Both the position numbers and the translations under genes were made by a program. From a bacterium (GTDB lineage Bacteria > DYJV01 > JALVYZ01), in NCBI GenBank assembly GCA_027037705.1, contig JALVYZ010000246.1:1-10935 (forward strand): a stretch of DNA of 10,935 nt, given 5' to 3'. The notes beneath the pieces are model-generated. The model saw only the letters and a list, made by a program, of their open reading frames with translations. It did no database searches and had not been told where the DNA came from. Position 1 is the stretch's first letter. Each line of letters starts with the position of its first letter. Below are positions 1 through 6,274 of the stretch, piece after piece.

Positions 1-1153
1 AAAAATGTAAAAAGAAATGTTGTGGGAAATATATTAAAGGGAGAACTAAAATTAAATACTTAATAATATTTATCTTTGCAGGTAAATTTTTAATAATAAA
101 TTGAAATCCATATGCAGATATAAATGCATAAAATACAAGCATTGGTATAAAATATTGATTACCTGAAATATACAATGAATCTATACTTAATTTTTTTTCA
201 CTAAAAGTAAAATATGCAAGTAATACTGAATAAGAAAAAAACGCTAATAAGAAATACCAAAATAATCTTTTACTTTTCTTCCATAAAAAAAAACAACCCA
301 GAAAAAAAAAGAAAAAAGAAAAATACTGGAATTGTCTTGAAAGTAGAATAAAAATATTTTTAATAGCATAATACCATTTTTCTAAATCTACTGAAAACAA
401 TGATTTTGCTACATCAACACTTGAAGATTTTCCATAGGCTTTTCTTAAAATAGTATGAAATAATAAAGATAAATTAGGTGAAGGAGACATATTTAAAAGA
501 GTATCTTTACAGCTCCTTATCATAAGATACACTACATTTAAAGAACCTAAAAAAAACAAAAACAAAGAAAACAAAAAATTTCTAATAAAATTTCTAAAAT
601 GTAAAATAATTACTAATAAAAGTGGGATTATTAAAAAAAAAGTTGTTTGATGAAGACCTAATGATAAACCTAATAAAAAAGATATAATAAATTGATATTT
701 CACATTGTATTCATATAAGCTTTTATATCCAATAAAAAAAATAATAAAAATCAAAAAAGTATTTAATGGATAAAATTTTGCAACACAAGCTTGACTTACG
801 AATGAATACGAGGAAAGCAATAAGAAAACATAAAAAAGTTGAGTAGATAAATTAAATCGTTCTTTAATTTCTAAAAACTCACAACCCAAAATGAGCAATG
901 ATGTAGCAATAAAACTTGAAACAAGCACAACTTTTAATGGAATATTTCCAAATGGCAAAAAAGTAAAAAACTTTGATATTAATAGATAAACAGGATATCC
1001 TGAAGGATGGGCAATACCAAGACCATAAGAAGCTGCAACAAGTTCTCCTGCATCCCCTGTATTAATTGTTTTAGATTGTAAATAAAAAAAAACAAAAAAA
1101 AATAGGGGATATAAAATCCCCCATTTAATTTTTGAGTTATATTTTATTATCAT
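1..1153 (-). CDS. DUF2723 / TMEM260-like multi-pass membrane glycosyltransferase (3' end cut by window)
   Basis: My own reverse-strand translation from ATG at 1153 stays open to the window edge, giving at least 384 codons with no stop. The protein is very hydrophobic (Phe/Leu/Ile-rich) with about nine or ten predicted membrane spans. Residues 29-70 carry the DUF2723 signature: T-x-DAGEL (D34, E37), then GIAHPSGYPVY (H49, P50, P54), then LPFGN. Further family landmarks are SQACVAKFYPLN at 120-131, GLSLGLHQT at 162-170, YLMIR at 209-213 and RKAYG at 237-241. The family is GT-C-like; human TMEM260 is an ER protein O-mannosyltransferase, while the bacterial members are mostly uncharacterised. The start lies 2 nt beyond the pilin stop, with GAGAG at 1170-1166 as a rather distant ribosome binding site, so translation is probably coupled to the pilin. 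I infer, without proof, that it transfers sugar to pilin or another exported protein. Family assignment is firm; acceptor and donor are unknown. The gene contains several A9/T9 runs. Confidence 0.85.
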   Translation of the reverse strand, partial: MIIKYNSKIKWGILYPLFFFVFFYLQSKTINTGDAGELVAASYGLGIAHPSGYPVYLLISKFFTFLPFGNIPLKVVLVSSFIATSLLILGCEFLEIKERFNLSTQLFYVFLLLSSYSFVSQACVAKFYPLNTFLIFIIFFIGYKSLYEYNVKYQFIISFLLGLSLGLHQTTFFLIIPLLLVIILHFRNFIRNFLFSLFLFFLGSLNVVYLMIRSCKDTLLNMSPSPNLSLLFHTILRKAYGKSSSVDVAKSLFSVDLEKWYYAIKNIFILLSRQFQYFSFFFFFLGCFFLWKKSKRLFWYFLLAFFSYSVLLAYFTFSEKKLSIDSLYISGNQYFIPMLVFYAFISAYGFQFIIKNLPAKINIIKYLILVLPLIYFPQHFFLHF

Positions 1154-1155
1154 TA

Positions 1156-1560
1156 TTACCAAATACTCTCATCAACTCCACCCTTACCTGAATCATAAGT
1201 TACAACCTTATTATATACTGTATTAGAAATTGAGAATGAAAAAGTATTACCAGCTTCACCATAATTCAAAAAAGAATTATTTCTACTTAATGTAAATGTA
1301 TCACCGTTATCAAAACCTACTATGTCACCATCACTTAAGCTAGATGGATAACTTCCTGTATCTGCAAAATAAGCTTCTATACTATTTGCAATATTTTTAG
1401 CATCTGAAACTGCAGAAGCTTTTGCCGCTCTCTCTTTGTATTTGTTGTACTGAGGAATAGCAATAGCAGCTAAAATTCCTATAATTGCAACAACTACTAA
1501 TAGCTCAATTAATGTAAAACCTTTTCTTTCTTTTAATTTTTTTCTTAAATCTGATATCAT
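1156..1560 (-). CDS. pilA: Type IV pilin (major pilin-like, class III leader)
   Basis: A 134-residue prepilin. A short basic leader (residues 1-14, ending RKG) precedes the cleavage site G14/F15. The mature protein starts [20 protein letters not shown], with Phe at position +1 and the essential Glu at +5 (E19), followed by the usual long hydrophobic N-terminal helix. PilD-type prepilin peptidase would cleave and N-methylate it; the subunit then packs into a pilus at the inner membrane. The 120-residue mature chain has the common [13 protein letters not shown] segment after the helix. Its C-terminal half is rich in Ser, Thr, Asn and Gly, and ends in a Gly-Lys-Gly-Gly stretch. There are no cysteines, so the disulfide-bounded D-region of classic PilA is absent. 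A strong ribosome binding site (GGAGGG) lies 5 nt before ATG. It sits 59 nt after fliH and just before a DUF2723 glycosyltransferase. A GspG-like pseudopilin is the alternative, but no type II secretion genes are visible. Confidence 0.88.
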
Positions 1561-1587
1561 TTTTCCCTCCTTTTTTATTTTTTAGCT

Positions 1588-1612
1588 TTTTTAATCTATA
1601 TCTAATTAAAAA
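1588..1612. repeat. A/T-only inverted repeat between fliH and the pilin gene
   Basis: An 8-bp perfect inverted repeat, tttttaat (1588-1595) and attaaaaa (1605-1612), flanks a 9-nt spacer. It lacks G-C pairs, so the hairpin would be weak; it overlaps the proposed pilin promoter. It might act as a poor terminator after fliH or may simply reflect base composition. Confidence 0.25.
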
Positions 1613-1623
1613 TAAAAAATCAA
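1595..1623 (-). promoter_or_regulatory. Possible sigma-70 promoter for the pilin gene
   Basis: On the minus strand TTGATT (1623-1618) and TATAGA (1600-1595) are separated by exactly 17 nt of A/T-only sequence apart from one G. Each hexamer matches four of six consensus positions. The predicted start, near 1588, gives a leader of about 27 nt ending in GGAGGG. The -35 overlaps the fliH stop codon. In such AT-rich DNA matches of this quality occur by chance, so this is tentative; the pilin could also be read through from fliH. Confidence 0.35.
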
Positions 1624-2438
1624 GAAAAATTTTTGTTTATTATAGCTCTCTCTAATTCAAAGATTTGTTCTTCTATTCTTAAATCGTAATCGCCAAAATT
1701 GGTTTCTATTATACAACCACCTGGAGTAATTTCAGTACTTTTTTCAATTTCTAAATTCTTTACATTATATAAATCCTTTAATTCATTCATTTTATTAAAA
1801 ATAAATTCAAATTGTGATGTATTTAACTTTATCTTTAAATAACTCTTATCAACAATTTTTTCAAGAGCTATTTTTAGATTTTCAAGTAGAATTTCATTTT
1901 TAAAAACTTCTAACTCTTTCTTAATAATCTTTTCAGCAAACTTCACAATTAACTTTCCTAATTTATTTCCATTCTCTTTAACAACTTTATTTTCAAAATT
2001 AGCTAAATTCATTATTAACTCTTTTAATTCTTCAATTCTCTTTTGAACTTCCTCTTTTCCTTCTTCAAATCCTTTTTTAAATCCTTCGTCAAAACCTTCA
2101 TTATAAGCCTGTTGTCTTATATTTTCATATTGCTTTTGCGCATCTTCTAATATCTTTTCGGCTTCTTTTTTCTTTTCTTTAATATAATTAAAGATTTCAC
2201 TTTCAGCGTCCTGTTTTTTCTTTTTATAATATAATTCAATACTTTTTTGATAATCCTCTTTTGTCAGCTCACCTTCTTCTGAAAACAAATTTTTAAATTT
2301 TTCTTCTTTTTCAACATTAAATTCAGGAATAAATTCTCTTTTAATATTAAAATTGGATAATGGATCCTTTTGACTTTTTATTACATTATCTGACTCATCA
2401 AAATTAATAAATTGAAAAGGTTTTATATTTTTAGACAA
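1620..2438 (-). CDS. fliH: Flagellar export apparatus protein FliH
   Basis: A 272-residue, Lys/Glu-rich protein in the usual FliH place after fliG. FliH binds the export ATPase FliI, holding it in check and docking it at the C-ring. Residues about 60-145 are predicted coiled coil. Within them is the glycine ladder typical of FliH, G115-x3-G119-x3-G123-x3-G127 (EGFDEGFKKGFEEGKEE). The C-terminal part (about 150-270) resembles the FliH/YscL/V-ATPase E-subunit domain, including FAEKIIKKEL and a PGGCIIET segment. The start codon is TTG (2438-2436), not ATG. It is well supported by GGAGGT 7 nt upstream, and no ATG lies near the N-terminus. It overlaps the end of fliG by 8 nt. The expected neighbour fliI is not downstream; a pilin gene follows instead. 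The call is secure by position and motif, as FliH sequences are poorly conserved. Confidence 0.88.
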   Translation of the reverse strand: MSKNIKPFQFINFDESDNVIKSQKDPLSNFNIKREFIPEFNVEKEEKFKNLFSEEGELTKEDYQKSIELYYKKKKQDAESEIFNYIKEKKKEAEKILEDAQKQYENIRQQAYNEGFDEGFKKGFEEGKEEVQKRIEELKELIMNLANFENKVVKENGNKLGKLIVKFAEKIIKKELEVFKNEILLENLKIALEKIVDKSYLKIKLNTSQFEFIFNKMNELKDLYNVKNLEIEKSTEITPGGCIIETNFGDYDLRIEEQIFELERAIINKNFS

Positions 2439-3441
2439 CTACTTCACCTCCTCCTTTAGCAATAACAATTTTACCCTCATCAGCAAGTCTTCTTGCAACT
2501 TGAATTATATTCTGTTGAGCCTGTTCAACATCAGACAATCTTACAGGTCCCATTGTTTCAAGGTCTTCTTTTATCATTTCAGCAGCTCTCTTTGACATAT
2601 TACTAAATATTTTTTCTTTAACTTGATCACTTGCTGCTTTAAGTGCAAGTAATAAATCTTCATTACTAACTTCTTTAAGTATTGTTTGTATTCCTCTATC
2701 ATCAACATGAATAAGATCTTCAAATACAAACATTTTCCTTCTAATTTCTTCTGCTAATTCAGGCTCTTTCTCTTCAATCTCTGCCATTACTTTCTCTTCA
2801 ACTTCTTTTGGCACATTATTCATTATTTCTGCAACAGGCTCAATTCCTCCAACCTGATGAGATTCTGTTCCACCAGCTGATTTAACTTCTTCTTCTAAAG
2901 CATCTTCTAATTCTTTTACTACTTCAGGGGATACTGTTTCTAATTTTGCAATTCTTAATATAACATCTGGCTGAAGACTTTCTGGGAGAAAAGATAAAGT
3001 TTTAGCTGCCTGTTGCGGATCTAAATGAGCTAAAATAACAGCTATTGTCTGAGGATGCTCTGATTTAATAAAATTTGCAATCATTTTAGGATCAACATTT
3101 AACAAAGTATAAAAAGGCTGTTTGGATAATGGAGTTCCAACTTTTTTTATTAATTCGGCAGCTTTCTCTTTACCAAAGGCTTTTTCAAGAATATTTTTTA
3201 TATTATCAATTCCAACACCAATAGAATGTTCTTCCCCAAGTTCTTTTAAGAATTCATTTGCTATTTCATCAATTTCTTTTGGAGATAATTCTCCTAATAG
3301 AGCCATCTCGTTACTGAGAGCATGTAACTCATATTCATTCAATTTTCTTAAAATTTTTGCAGCATTTTCTTCACCAATAGCTAATAATAGCGCTGCAGCT
3401 TTTCTCTTTTTTGAATAACCTTCCTGATTTTTTTGTGGCAT
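2431..3441 (-). CDS. fliG: Flagellar motor switch protein FliG
   Basis: A 336-residue protein, normal FliG length. FliG forms the upper C-ring: its N-terminal domain binds the FliF tail at the MS ring and its C-terminal domain meets the stator to generate torque and switch rotation. The N-domain covers about 1-100 (KAAALLLAIGEENAAKILR near 14-32). The middle domain holds the conserved EHPQ motif at 128-131, followed by TIAVILAHLDPQQAA. The C-terminal domain (about 195-336) has MFVFEDLIHVDDRGIQ with the charged torque-helix residues, then KRAAEMIKEDLE and GPVRLSDVE. ATG at 3441 overlaps the fliF stop as TAATG, with AAGGAG 9 nt upstream, so translation is coupled to FliF, its binding partner. 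Its last codons contain the fliH ribosome binding site. Confidence 0.97.
   Translation of the reverse strand: MPQKNQEGYSKKRKAAALLLAIGEENAAKILRKLNEYELHALSNEMALLGELSPKEIDEIANEFLKELGEEHSIGVGIDNIKNILEKAFGKEKAAELIKKVGTPLSKQPFYTLLNVDPKMIANFIKSEHPQTIAVILAHLDPQQAAKTLSFLPESLQPDVILRIAKLETVSPEVVKELEDALEEEVKSAGGTESHQVGGIEPVAEIMNNVPKEVEEKVMAEIEEKEPELAEEIRRKMFVFEDLIHVDDRGIQTILKEVSNEDLLLALKAASDQVKEKIFSNMSKRAAEMIKEDLETMGPVRLSDVEQAQQNIIQVARRLADEGKIVIAKGGGEVVV
2446..2451 (-). promoter_or_regulatory. Ribosome binding site for fliH, inside fliG
   Basis: GGAGGT, part of a longer AAAGGAGGAGGTGA run at 2457-2444, ends 7 nt before the TTG start of fliH. The same bases encode the Lys-Gly-Gly-Gly near the FliG C-terminus. 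This site decides the TTG start. Confidence 0.75.
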
Positions 3442-5078
3442 TAAGTTCTACTCCTTAACCATTCTTTTATTAATCCTACAACTTTATCAGGATCCTCATC
3501 TAATAACTTAACTATTTTATCTTTTGGTTTTAACTTTTTCTCTTTTTTAACTTCAAACTCTTCTTTAACACCTTCTGAAATCTCTTCTTCTCTTTTTAAG
3601 ATTTGTCTCTCTATCTCTTCAACTGTCTTTGGTATTTCTGTAACAACTTCAGGTGGTTGAATCCTCTGTAATAAAATTTTTAATATTGGCTTTATTATAA
3701 AGAAAAATATAATAAATATTATTAAAATAGTCAAACCATATTTTACACCCATCATAATCAAAGATGTTAATTTCTCTTTTTTTAGCTCTTTATTTAATTT
3801 TTCAATTTCATTATAATTAAATGCAACATTTGCTATTTCTATTTGATCCTTTCTATTTGGATCAAATCCAATTGCTTTTTTTACAATTTCTTTAAAAACT
3901 TCCATTTCTTTTGGAGAACGAGGGATATATTCTTTTACAGTTTTTTTACCTTTTTTTACCTCTTTATAAGTTCCATCTACCAGAACAGCGACAGACAATC
4001 TTTTAATTACTCCAATAGGTTTTTCTGTGTGGCTTACAATTTTACTAACTTCATAATTTACAATTTCGTGTTCTTTATTCTTTGCAAGAGGTAAGATTGA
4101 ACCACCCTTTTTCTTTTGTTGAACCATTACAGATGGAACATTGGACGCAACACCTGGAATCCCACCTTTTACCTGATTCTGTGCATAAACTTTTTCTACA
4201 TCTTTTTCATGACTTCTTTCTGCAACATTTTCTGGATCAAAAATTTCTTTTGTTTCTTTCATTTTAGTAAAATCTAAATCTGCATTTACTCTTACAACAA
4301 CTTTTCCTCTACCAACAACTTTTTCCAACATAGATTGAATTTCTCTTTTATAATAATTCTCAACTCTTTTTTTATATTCAATTTTTTTCTGCACTCCTGC
4401 TGTTACATCTTCATTTTCTTTCAATTTATCTGTTAAAACATTCCCTAAATTATCTAATACTACTACATTATCAGGTTTTAATCCTTCAATACTATTTGCT
4501 ACTAAATTTACAATTGCTTTTATCTGTTCAACTTTTAATGTTGAATAACCTGGCTCATAAGTAATAATAACAGAAGCAGTTGGAGGATTTTGTTCATCTT
4601 TAAATAAACTTTCTTTTGGTGTAACAATGTGAACTCTTGCAGTTTTTATACCTCTAATTGTCTCAATTGACCTTGCAAGCTCGCCTTGAACTGCTCTCAT
4701 ATAATTTATTTTTTGAACAAATTCTGTTACTCCAAAACTTGTTTTGTCAAAAATTTCAAATCCAACTCCACTTCCTCCTGGAATTCCAGATTTAGCTAAC
4801 ATCATTCTAATTTCATATACTCTACTTTTTGGAACTTTTATTGTTCCAGTACGTTCATCTATTTTATAACTAATTCTATTTTTCTTTAAAAATTCTATAA
4901 TTTCACCAGATTGTTCCATTGGAATATTATAATATAAAGCCACATAATTTCCAGAGCCTTTATAGGAAATAAATATAATAGAAGATGTTATCAAAAACAT
5001 TATCAATCCCAAAATAATTATCTTTTTTGTCATTGAAAGTTCATTAAACTTCTTTAACAAGTTTTGTAATTGTTCCAT
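3441..5078 (-). CDS. fliF: Flagellar MS-ring protein FliF
   Basis: A 545-residue protein, the usual FliF size. About 34 copies build the MS ring in the inner membrane, the base on which rod, export gate and C-ring assemble. A first membrane helix lies at about 19-38 and a second at about 440-462. Between them is the periplasmic YscJ/FliF ring-building region, with SGIPGGSGVGFEIFDKTSFG near 90-110 and GELARSIETIRGIKTARVHIVTP following. The cytoplasmic tail ends in DKIVKLLDEDPDKVVGLIKEWL, the helical segment that binds FliG. ATG at 5078 follows an AGGGGG ribosome binding site. The gene begins 20 nt after fliE and overlaps fliG by one base. Nothing is missing or truncated. Confidence 0.97.
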   Translation of the reverse strand: MEQLQNLLKKFNELSMTKKIIILGLIMFLITSSIIFISYKGSGNYVALYYNIPMEQSGEIIEFLKKNRISYKIDERTGTIKVPKSRVYEIRMMLAKSGIPGGSGVGFEIFDKTSFGVTEFVQKINYMRAVQGELARSIETIRGIKTARVHIVTPKESLFKDEQNPPTASVIITYEPGYSTLKVEQIKAIVNLVANSIEGLKPDNVVVLDNLGNVLTDKLKENEDVTAGVQKKIEYKKRVENYYKREIQSMLEKVVGRGKVVVRVNADLDFTKMKETKEIFDPENVAERSHEKDVEKVYAQNQVKGGIPGVASNVPSVMVQQKKKGGSILPLAKNKEHEIVNYEVSKIVSHTEKPIGVIKRLSVAVLVDGTYKEVKKGKKTVKEYIPRSPKEMEVFKEIVKKAIGFDPNRKDQIEIANVAFNYNEIEKLNKELKKEKLTSLIMMGVKYGLTILIIFIIFFFIIKPILKILLQRIQPPEVVTEIPKTVEEIERQILKREEEISEGVKEEFEVKKEKKLKPKDKIVKLLDEDPDKVVGLIKEWLRSRT

Positions 5079-5098
5079 TATATTACCCCCTGCTATAA

Positions 5099-5389
5099 TT
5101 AAACCTGCATTCTCATAATATCTTGATATGCCTGTACTAACTTATTTCTTATCTGTAAAAACAATTGCAAAGACACATCAGCTTTCTCCATTGCTAATAC
5201 AACCTTTGTAATATCTTTTTCCTCTCCTTTTAAAAATCTTTCTATTGTTTTATCAGAATCAATTTGTTTTTCATTCACATCATCAATATAATTTTTTATT
5301 AAATCCATAAAATTACTATCTTTTTTTTCTGTTTTCTTATTCTCATTTATAATTGTAGTTAATGGATTATTACTAATTTGATTAATCAT
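5099..5389 (-). CDS. fliE: Flagellar hook-basal body protein FliE
   Basis: A 96-residue protein matching FliE in size. FliE is the junction that joins the MS ring and export gate to the proximal rod protein FlgB, and is itself exported. The conserved C-terminal half is visible: KVVLAMEKADVSLQLFLQIRNKL followed by AYQDIMRMQV at the end. The N-terminal half is polar and variable, as is usual. The ribosome binding site AGGAGG overlaps the flgC stop codon (TAAGGAGG), 5 nt before ATG. The order flgB-flgC-fliE-fliF is classical and supports the call. Confidence 0.95.
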   Translation of the reverse strand: MINQISNNPLTTIINENKKTEKKDSNFMDLIKNYIDDVNEKQIDSDKTIERFLKGEEKDITKVVLAMEKADVSLQLFLQIRNKLVQAYQDIMRMQV

Positions 5390-5399
5390 AATTACCTCC

Positions 5400-5828
5400 T
5401 TATACTCTTAAAATATCTATTGTTCTTGAAACCATATCCTTAGCACTTCTCATAACTTGCACATTTGCTTCATAACTTCTTGAAGCATTAATTAAATTTA
5501 CCATTTCTTCCATTAGGTTTATATTTGGCATTTTGACATACCCATCTTTATCTGCATCAGGATTAGAGGGATCATATTTTAATATTGGAGGTCTGTTGTC
5601 TTCAACTATATTTTTAACTTTTACTGTTTCTAATTCTAATTGATTTGCAAAACTATTTTTATTTTCAATAGGAGAAGCTTCAAAAACAACATCTTTCCTT
5701 TTATATGGTCCTCCTTCAGGAGTACGAGTAGTATTAATATTTGCAATATTACTTGAAATTACATTAATTCTTAGTCTTTCTGCACTCATACCACTTGCTG
5801 AAATATTAAATGCAGTTAAAAAACTCAT
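5400..5828 (-). CDS. flgC: Flagellar basal-body rod protein FlgC
   Basis: A 142-residue proximal rod protein, normal length. It carries the rod/hook N-terminal motif ASGMSAERLRINVISSNIAN (11-30) that forms the helical D0 region. The FlgC-specific EGGPYKRKDVVFE follows, then YDPSNPDADKDGYVKMPN, which is diagnostic for FlgC. The C-terminal D0 helix contains EEMVNLINASRSYEANV. It is secreted through the flagellar type III apparatus and has no cleavable signal. ATG at 5828 overlaps the flgB stop as TAATG. Its ribosome binding site AGGAGGT is encoded in the last FlgB codons, so the two rod proteins are translationally coupled. Confidence 0.97.
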   Translation of the reverse strand: MSFLTAFNISASGMSAERLRINVISSNIANINTTRTPEGGPYKRKDVVFEASPIENKNSFANQLELETVKVKNIVEDNRPPILKYDPSNPDADKDGYVKMPNINLMEEMVNLINASRSYEANVQVMRSAKDMVSRTIDILRV

Positions 5829-6226
5829 TATTTACCTCCTTGAGTGATTGAATCTTTTAACATTCTAACTTTTTTAGTAAAAATTTGAATATACGAATTA
5901 TAAAGCAATTGATTTTTTGCCATTTTAGCCATTTCTCTATCAAGGTCAACATTATTGTTGTCATTCCCTATAACAGTACTATTACATTCCTCTATTTTAA
6001 CTGAATTTAAATCTGAAGAGTTGTTGGATAATGATATGTGTTTGGAATTTGTTGTTTCTAATTTTAATTTTGAGTCAGGTGTCAAAATTTTATTAAATTC
6101 TTTTTCAAAGTCAAGATTTTTACACCTATAATTTGGAGTATTGATATTAGCAATGTTAGAGCTTATAACATCATGTTTTATTGCTCTTAATCTCATTGCT
6201 ATGGAAAGTTCTTTTAAGATATCCAT
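5828..6226 (-). CDS. flgB: Flagellar basal-body rod protein FlgB
   Basis: A proximal rod protein of 132 residues from the start chosen here. The N-terminal rod motif is SSNIANINTPNY at about 22-33, followed by LDFEKEF. The C-terminal rod helix includes the VDLDREMAKMAKNQLLYNSYIQ segment. The open frame extends upstream to a TTG at 6274, but that codon lies in the terminator U-tract and promoter, has no ribosome binding site, and would add 16 residues unlike FlgB N-termini. Two adjacent ATGs (6229 and 6226) follow GGAGG at 6236-6232. The second has the better spacing (5 nt against 2) and matches the usual distance to NIAN. It is the first gene of the flagellar operon. FlgB, FlgC and FliE meet physically at the base of the rod. 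Confidence 0.93.
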   Translation of the reverse strand: MDILKELSIAMRLRAIKHDVISSNIANINTPNYRCKNLDFEKEFNKILTPDSKLKLETTNSKHISLSNNSSDLNSVKIEECNSTVIGNDNNNVDLDREMAKMAKNQLLYNSYIQIFTKKVRMLKDSITQGGK

Positions 6227-6231
6227 CATTG

Positions 6232-6236
6232 CCTCC
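6232..6236 (-). promoter_or_regulatory. Ribosome binding site for flgB
   Basis: GGAGG lies 2 nt before ATG 6229 and 5 nt before ATG 6226. It decides the flgB start against the longer TTG-initiated frame. Confidence 0.7.
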
Positions 6237-6257
6237 ACTTCCTTTTTAAAGAGTGAA

Positions 6258-6274
6258 AGCAATAATTGTTCCAA
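6258..6274 (-). promoter_or_regulatory. Sigma-54 (-24/-12) type promoter for the flgB operon
   Basis: The minus strand reads TTGGAAC, AATTA, TTGCT. The -24 GG (6272-6271) and -12 GC (6260-6259) are separated by exactly 10 nt, as required for RpoN. Against the consensus YTGGCACG-N4-TTGCW only C-to-A and G-to-A differ within the -24 block. The predicted start is the A near 6247, giving a leader of about 18-21 nt that contains GGAGG. It follows the ribosomal operon terminator directly, where a new promoter is needed. Sigma-54 control of rod and basal-body genes is known in several bacteria. An activator site was not identified. Confidence 0.7.

Follow-up and report, generated by a model that had tools for sequence, protein, structure and literature searches.

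Experimental knowledge of pilin glycosylation comes mainly from TfpO/PglL and TfpW, in proteobacteria. TfpO/PilO and PglL belong to the Wzy_C/O-antigen-ligase family and transfer O-antigen units or oligosaccharides. In enzymes of the GT-C class, an acidic residue of the first extracytoplasmic loop is catalytic. TfpW of Pseudomonas group IV is a pilin-linked GT-C D-arabinofuranosyltransferase, described as a novel GT-C family using D-Araf (Kus 2008, as cited in PMC11841053). In Pseudomonas and other genera, a terminator has been described between pilA and the accessory gene (PMC11841053). Outside bacteria, TMEM260 (CAZy GT117) is an animal protein O-mannosyltransferase that acts on the IPT domains of plexins, MET and RON (PMC11292533).

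The locus considered here places a type IV pilin gene directly before a TMEM260-family gene, and the analysed window of 10,935 nt is an entire contig (G000:C246:1-10935) from a fragmented metagenome-assembled genome (MAG; 496 contigs, 92.8% complete). The prepilin gene is on the minus strand at 1156..1560, encodes 134 aa with the N-terminal motif GFTLIELL...AIP, and is preceded by a GGAGGG ribosome-binding site at 1565..1570 on the same strand, found by direct reading of the sequence. The enzyme gene follows on the minus strand at 2..1153. The pilin stop TAA (1158-1156) is separated from the enzyme ATG (1153-1151) by 2 nt, and the open reading frame coordinates agree with the spacing given in the original prediction. 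Because the contig ends inside the enzyme gene, only the first 384 residues are visible, of about 610-645 aa in relatives, and the C-terminal part and possible downstream partners are absent from the window. We think it quite probable that these two genes are the front of a pilin-glycosylation operon, in which the GT-C enzyme O-glycosylates the pilin.

In genetic layout, the nearest described loci are TfpO/TfpW/TfpY of Pseudomonas (PMC11841053). With TfpO and PglL the locus would share O-glycosylation of pilin and, for TfpO, a gene beside pilA, but neither the window enzyme nor its homologs L138-L141 has any Pfam match to the Wzy_C/O-antigen-ligase domain, and membership in the TfpO/PglL family is rejected as far as Pfam matches can show. 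The likeness to TfpW is closer, being that of a pilin-dedicated GT-C enzyme whose gene adjoins the pilin gene, with a terminator between pilin and accessory gene; the donor genes differ, the relatives' operon having a GT2 like dolichol-phosphate-mannose synthase, and by its description TfpW would belong to another enzyme family. On this comparison the nearest known mechanism appears to be TfpW rather than TfpO/PglL. The route is different from TfpO/PglL as originally predicted, although a GT-C enzyme dedicated to pilin was already known in principle through TfpW.

The pilin is recognizable by a class III signal peptide with Gly(-1), Glu5 and a hydrophobic helix, matching PF07963 (E = 1.2e-9) and TIGR02532, both over cut-off, and a PDB search matches it to Geobacter and Neisseria pilins. 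Ten pilin-like N-termini are found among the roughly 2,000 genes of the window genome, and its T2SSE matches include frames of PilB size (575 aa) and PilT size (367-368 aa); because of these pilin-like N-termini and PilB-/PilT-type ATPases, a type IV pilus is plausible in this organism. Upstream of the pair in the window (1156-6274) is a flagellar operon, flgB-flgC-fliE-fliF-fliG-fliH with no fliI, that adjoins an rpoA/rplQ ribosomal cluster and is separated from the pilin by a gap of 59 nt after fliH.

The enzyme belongs to the TMEM260/DUF2723 family (CAZy GT117) by every sequence and fold test we ran. It matches PF11028, 'Protein O-mannosyl-transferase TMEM260-like', at 69.6 bits (E = 3.9e-19) against a gathering cut-off of 24.2, and PF11028 is matched also in L138-L141; the window enzyme is the one copy found in its genome. 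The DUF2723 signature that had been read from the letters is confirmed by this match, with its motifs exactly at residues 34-38, 49-54 and 120-131. A profile built from five sequences, with the window protein in the lead, finds the PDB sequence of TMEM260 (9rql/9rqm/9rqn) at E = 3.9e-44, aligning the membrane core (chain residues 32-465) with GDxGEL, HPxGYP and LRxxYG in register and leaving the C-terminal part unaligned. The differences from TMEM260 are that the window enzyme is bacterial and pilin-linked, and that the pilin acceptor and the sugar are what we propose for it.

The segment D34-A-G-E-L38, encoded at 1040..1054 on the minus strand and predicted to be in the first periplasmic loop, aligns with GDSGEL of TMEM260. 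Its Asp is kept in all 44 pilin-linked homologs and in 54 of the 56 without a linked pilin, and Glu37 is not conserved, so that of the DAGEL motif noted earlier the Asp stands as a conserved feature and the Glu, replaced by Gly in several relatives, does not. The substitution to Gly with the Asp retained occurs in several Aquificota and Nitrospirota enzymes (L139, L191-L194, L166, L168 and L170). A His-Pro-Gly-Pro motif is also conserved. From its position and conservation D34 is probably the catalytic Asp. An enzyme lacking the GT-C acid in the complete gene would have spoken against the proposal; the loop Asp is present and invariant, including in the complete genes of relatives. In L170 (G484:C3, Nitrospirota) the enzyme gene is in two overlapping frames, which is a frameshift or an assembly error.

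AlphaFold2 models are of moderate confidence, with pLDDT 58 and pTM 0.61 for the full homolog from G001, and pLDDT 62 and pTM 0.67 for the window fragment; the loop bearing D34 is below pLDDT 50. In a fold search with VIA-align, the strong matches of both models are GT-C enzymes alone, namely OST/STT3, ArnT, PglB, PMT and ALG12. The best score is Z = 24.3 (6s7o) for the G001 model and Z = 19.9 (8pn9) for the window model, for which the next unrelated folds are at Z ~5 (5.5). The models thus predict a GT-C fold. TMEM260 is not among the fold-search matches listed, and its entries may be missing from the searched structure set; likeness to TMEM260 is for this reason judged by the sequence profile. 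The structural comparison with TMEM260 and PMT folds that had been suggested as a check gives GT-C folds, with PMT itself (6p25) at Z = 23.1. The fungal and animal PMTs (GT39) resemble the enzyme in that fold, in an Asp in the first loop and in the Dol-P-Man donor, which for the window enzyme is a proposed one, but are another sequence family, have a MIR domain and form dimers, and the window enzyme has no Pfam PMT match.

How often the two genes go together was asked in 3 surveys. A DUF2723 match is present in 50/345 Nitrospirota genomes, and a pilin is directly upstream on the same strand for 22 of the 28 best-scoring loci having enough upstream sequence. Aquificota have the gene in 15/136 genomes, directly after a pilin in 13 of the 14 with upstream sequence. 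A domain-wide sample gives 5/54 pilin-linked, and about 50 bacterial DUF2723 genes in it are without an adjacent pilin. PMT_2, another GT-C family, served as a control in 30 of the same genomes, with a pilin upstream in 0/28; one apparent PMT_2 gene with a pilin (L266) was rejected, being in fact G420's own DUF2723 gene. The number of pilin genes gives a rough chance expectation of 0.2-0.5% per gene. Adjacency in relatives is far beyond chance, and is conserved across phyla as the original prediction required.

Binomial tails for these counts are tiny, although genes that share ancestry are not independent. A tree handles relatedness better than binomial counts do, and we built one of 87 DUF2723 proteins. 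The window enzyme falls in a group of 29 (SH-aLRT 100) spanning Nitrospirota, Aquificota and the window's order, of which 27 are pilin-linked, counting G001 and Thermodesulfovibrio SKYB9 through split contigs; the unlinked members are L169 and L033. Over the whole tree the pilin-linked label needs 5 changes, versus a shuffled mean of 25.5. A second pilin-linked clade consists of G033, G045, G058 and G293. Genuine exceptions are the Nitrospirota locus L169, with no upstream pilin, and L194, whose pilin is 464 nt upstream.

A contig search with the window protein alone has no match, and one with the window/G001 pair leads to four named loci. G001, the one other genome of the window's order examined, is a MAG from a sulfidic cave that was deposited under the name 'Candidatus Methylomirabilis sp.', possibly a misnomer; it is itself one of the four (L140). 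Its best enzyme homolog begins 25 nt from a contig end and its best pilin homolog is cut off by the end of another contig, consistent with a junction of the window type. The L139 locus, from a Hydrogenothermaceae bacterium, has a tandem pair of pilins ahead of the enzyme, with an overlap of 16 nt between the second pilin and the enzyme; in a Nitrospirae MAG (L141) the pilin is ~70 nt upstream. In Thermodesulfovibrio SKYB9, PilQ, the pilin and the enzyme start are on a contig that overlaps identically with the contig bearing the remainder. Most Aquificota (L190-L202) have the tandem arrangement, with the second pilin overlapping the enzyme start by ~4-16 nt. What is further upstream differs: the window has fliH there, G001 a histidine kinase, SKYB9 PilQ and SKW173 minor pilins. 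The order of pilin, enzyme and small transmembrane protein is kept despite this variation. The linked pilins of L174, L177 and L185 look to be of MSHA type (GFTLIELVMIIxILGILAAVAxPKF), which means that more than one type of pilin is found in the pairing.

Downstream of the enzyme, the relatives' operon encodes first a small 3-TM protein, then a glycosyltransferase of family GT4 or GT9 and, in most cases, a GT2 of ~235 aa; the version with GT4/GT9 and GT2 is found in many of 20 longer loci and in L138-L141. The small protein has 200 aa, about three transmembrane segments and a weakly TPR-like middle, and is 3' of the enzyme in nearly every clade member with sequence there (for example L042:1889-2527, L138:1813-2439, L139:8866-9462 and L141:8875-9498). 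It has no Pfam, NCBIfam or convincing PDB match. The best PDB match of the L139 GT2 is dolichol-monophosphate-mannose synthase 5mlz at E = 7e-31, far better than ArnC-type enzymes at 5e-11. A donor enzyme like Dol-P-Man synthase in these operons is a further likeness to TMEM260, beside PF11028, the membrane-core alignment with GD(S/A)GEL, HPxGYP and LRxxYG, and the GT-C fold. A search across the window genome for the missing C-terminus, the small 3-TM protein and the donor synthase gives distant GT2 proteins alone (30% identical); the window organism would presumably have these partners as its relatives do.

Assembled into a mechanism, these parts suggest the following. The prepilin would be inserted into the inner membrane. 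The GT2 would make a lipid-phosphate hexose on the cytoplasmic face, which would then be moved across. With a polyprenyl monophosphate as carrier of the hexose, which may be mannose, the GT-C enzyme would transfer this sugar on the periplasmic side to Ser/Thr in the exposed domain of the neighboring pilin while the pilin is still unassembled, D34 working at the transfer site. The GT4/GT9 probably adds or prepares a further sugar, and the small 3-TM protein may be an accessory of the enzyme.

The case for the pilin as acceptor can be looked at in its composition. The exposed part of the window pilin is 92 residues, beginning after the first 28 mature residues, and has 21.7% Ser+Thr, where the remaining pilin-like proteins of this genome have 7-16%. 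Across loci, linked pilins have 20% and unlinked pilins 17% (p = 0.007), a difference confounded by pilin class. The Ser/Thr-rich exposed half pointed out earlier is therefore a real enrichment, but with so small an excess and with pilin class as a confounder it makes a weak argument, and it favors the acceptor role without proving it. No conserved acceptor motif is obvious by eye in the linked pilins. Among the results listed by open-access literature searches there is no report of a glycan on pilins of these loci, no paper on DUF2723, none tying TMEM260/GT117 to pilin, and none on pilin glycosylation in these phyla. The conserved neighborhood by itself shows joint function of the two genes, not that the pilin is the acceptor. 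Joint function is a well-supported hypothesis, and O-glycosylation of the pilin by the enzyme is rather well supported; cross-phylum adjacency together with the invariant GT-C loop Asp argues for the original prediction that the enzyme modifies its neighbor.

Other readings of the pairing have to be set against this one. If the enzyme were a general periplasmic O-glycosyltransferase of several exported proteins, the pilin would be just its most abundant or most recent neighbor; TMEM260 and PMT relatives do modify several proteins (PMC11292533), and many bacterial DUF2723 genes have no pilin neighbor, but the enzyme follows pilins in almost all genomes of the clade, with tandem pilins in most Aquificota, and each pilin type is paired with its own enzyme branch, leaving this reading unlikely. 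Somewhat less likely again is a target that is a lipid-linked glycan or surface polysaccharide, with the locus kept because pili and polymer are used together. That would account for the GT4/GT9 in the operon and for surface-polysaccharide-like genes farther downstream in relatives' loci, and many GT-C enzymes act on lipids, with ArnT and ALG12 being among the fold matches. Its difficulty is that TMEM260, the family member of known function, is protein-specific, and that the enzyme stays with pilins across very different downstream contexts.

TfpY-type genes follow pilins behind a terminator and aid assembly with no modification of the pilin (PMC11841053), so a non-catalytic assembly accessory would fit the gene order as well; the conservation of D34 and of the His-Pro-Gly-Pro motif, and the donor-synthase-like GT2 genes accompanying the enzyme, make such a role very improbable. 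As for an adjacency with no functional meaning, the window genome offers a single case, with ~10 pilin-like genes in roughly 2,000, but the arrangement recurs in at least 3 phyla and clusters on the tree, and with the PMT_2 control at 0/28 we regard chance as ruled out.

Returning to pilin glycosylation as the preferred reading, we lean, with rather less assurance than for the locus itself, to the broader view that this is a widespread undescribed pilin O-glycosylation pathway, present in Nitrospirota, Aquificota and further phyla. The TMEM260 homologs of these bacteria would be pilin-dedicated O-hexosyltransferases, probably O-mannosyltransferases, each working with a polyprenyl-phosphate-hexose synthase of its own and with a new 3-TM accessory. 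If so, pilin glycosylation would have a third enzyme family, one common to an animal protein O-mannosyltransferase, and would extend to deep-branching thermophiles. It would also suggest what the bacterial DUF2723 proteins, a large family, may do, and would bear on the origin of animal O-mannosylation, and the pilin glycan could account for pilus survival against heat and phages.

The junction between the two genes has a further feature in a terminator-like hairpin and T run, found by a terminator scan at 1100..1126 on the minus strand, within codons ~10-18 of the enzyme gene. The scan gives 3 overlapping sites versus 0.5 expected, and the fold has z = -3.0. Many relatives have strong terminator-like hairpins between pilin and enzyme, with z from -3.5 to -7.1 in those tested. 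The window hairpin is a candidate attenuator, which would let the pilin stay abundant and the enzyme scarce.

The small 3-TM family also occurs in a setting like the Myxococcus pilA-pilG-pilH-pilI-pilD cluster, to which we liken it by description. In G045, G179 and G034 it is found among a pilin, a PilG-like protein, an ABC ATPase/permease and PilD, where the PilG/H/I naming is by gene order and domains, and two of these three clusters include a DUF2723 gene. At L125:315-8042 and in L057, the cluster of pilin, PilG-like protein, ABC ATPase and permease, small 3-TM protein and PilD has the DUF2723 gene inserted. A PilG/H/I-PilD-like cluster at L133 has the small protein but no DUF2723 gene, and the protein is found beside unrelated genes as well.
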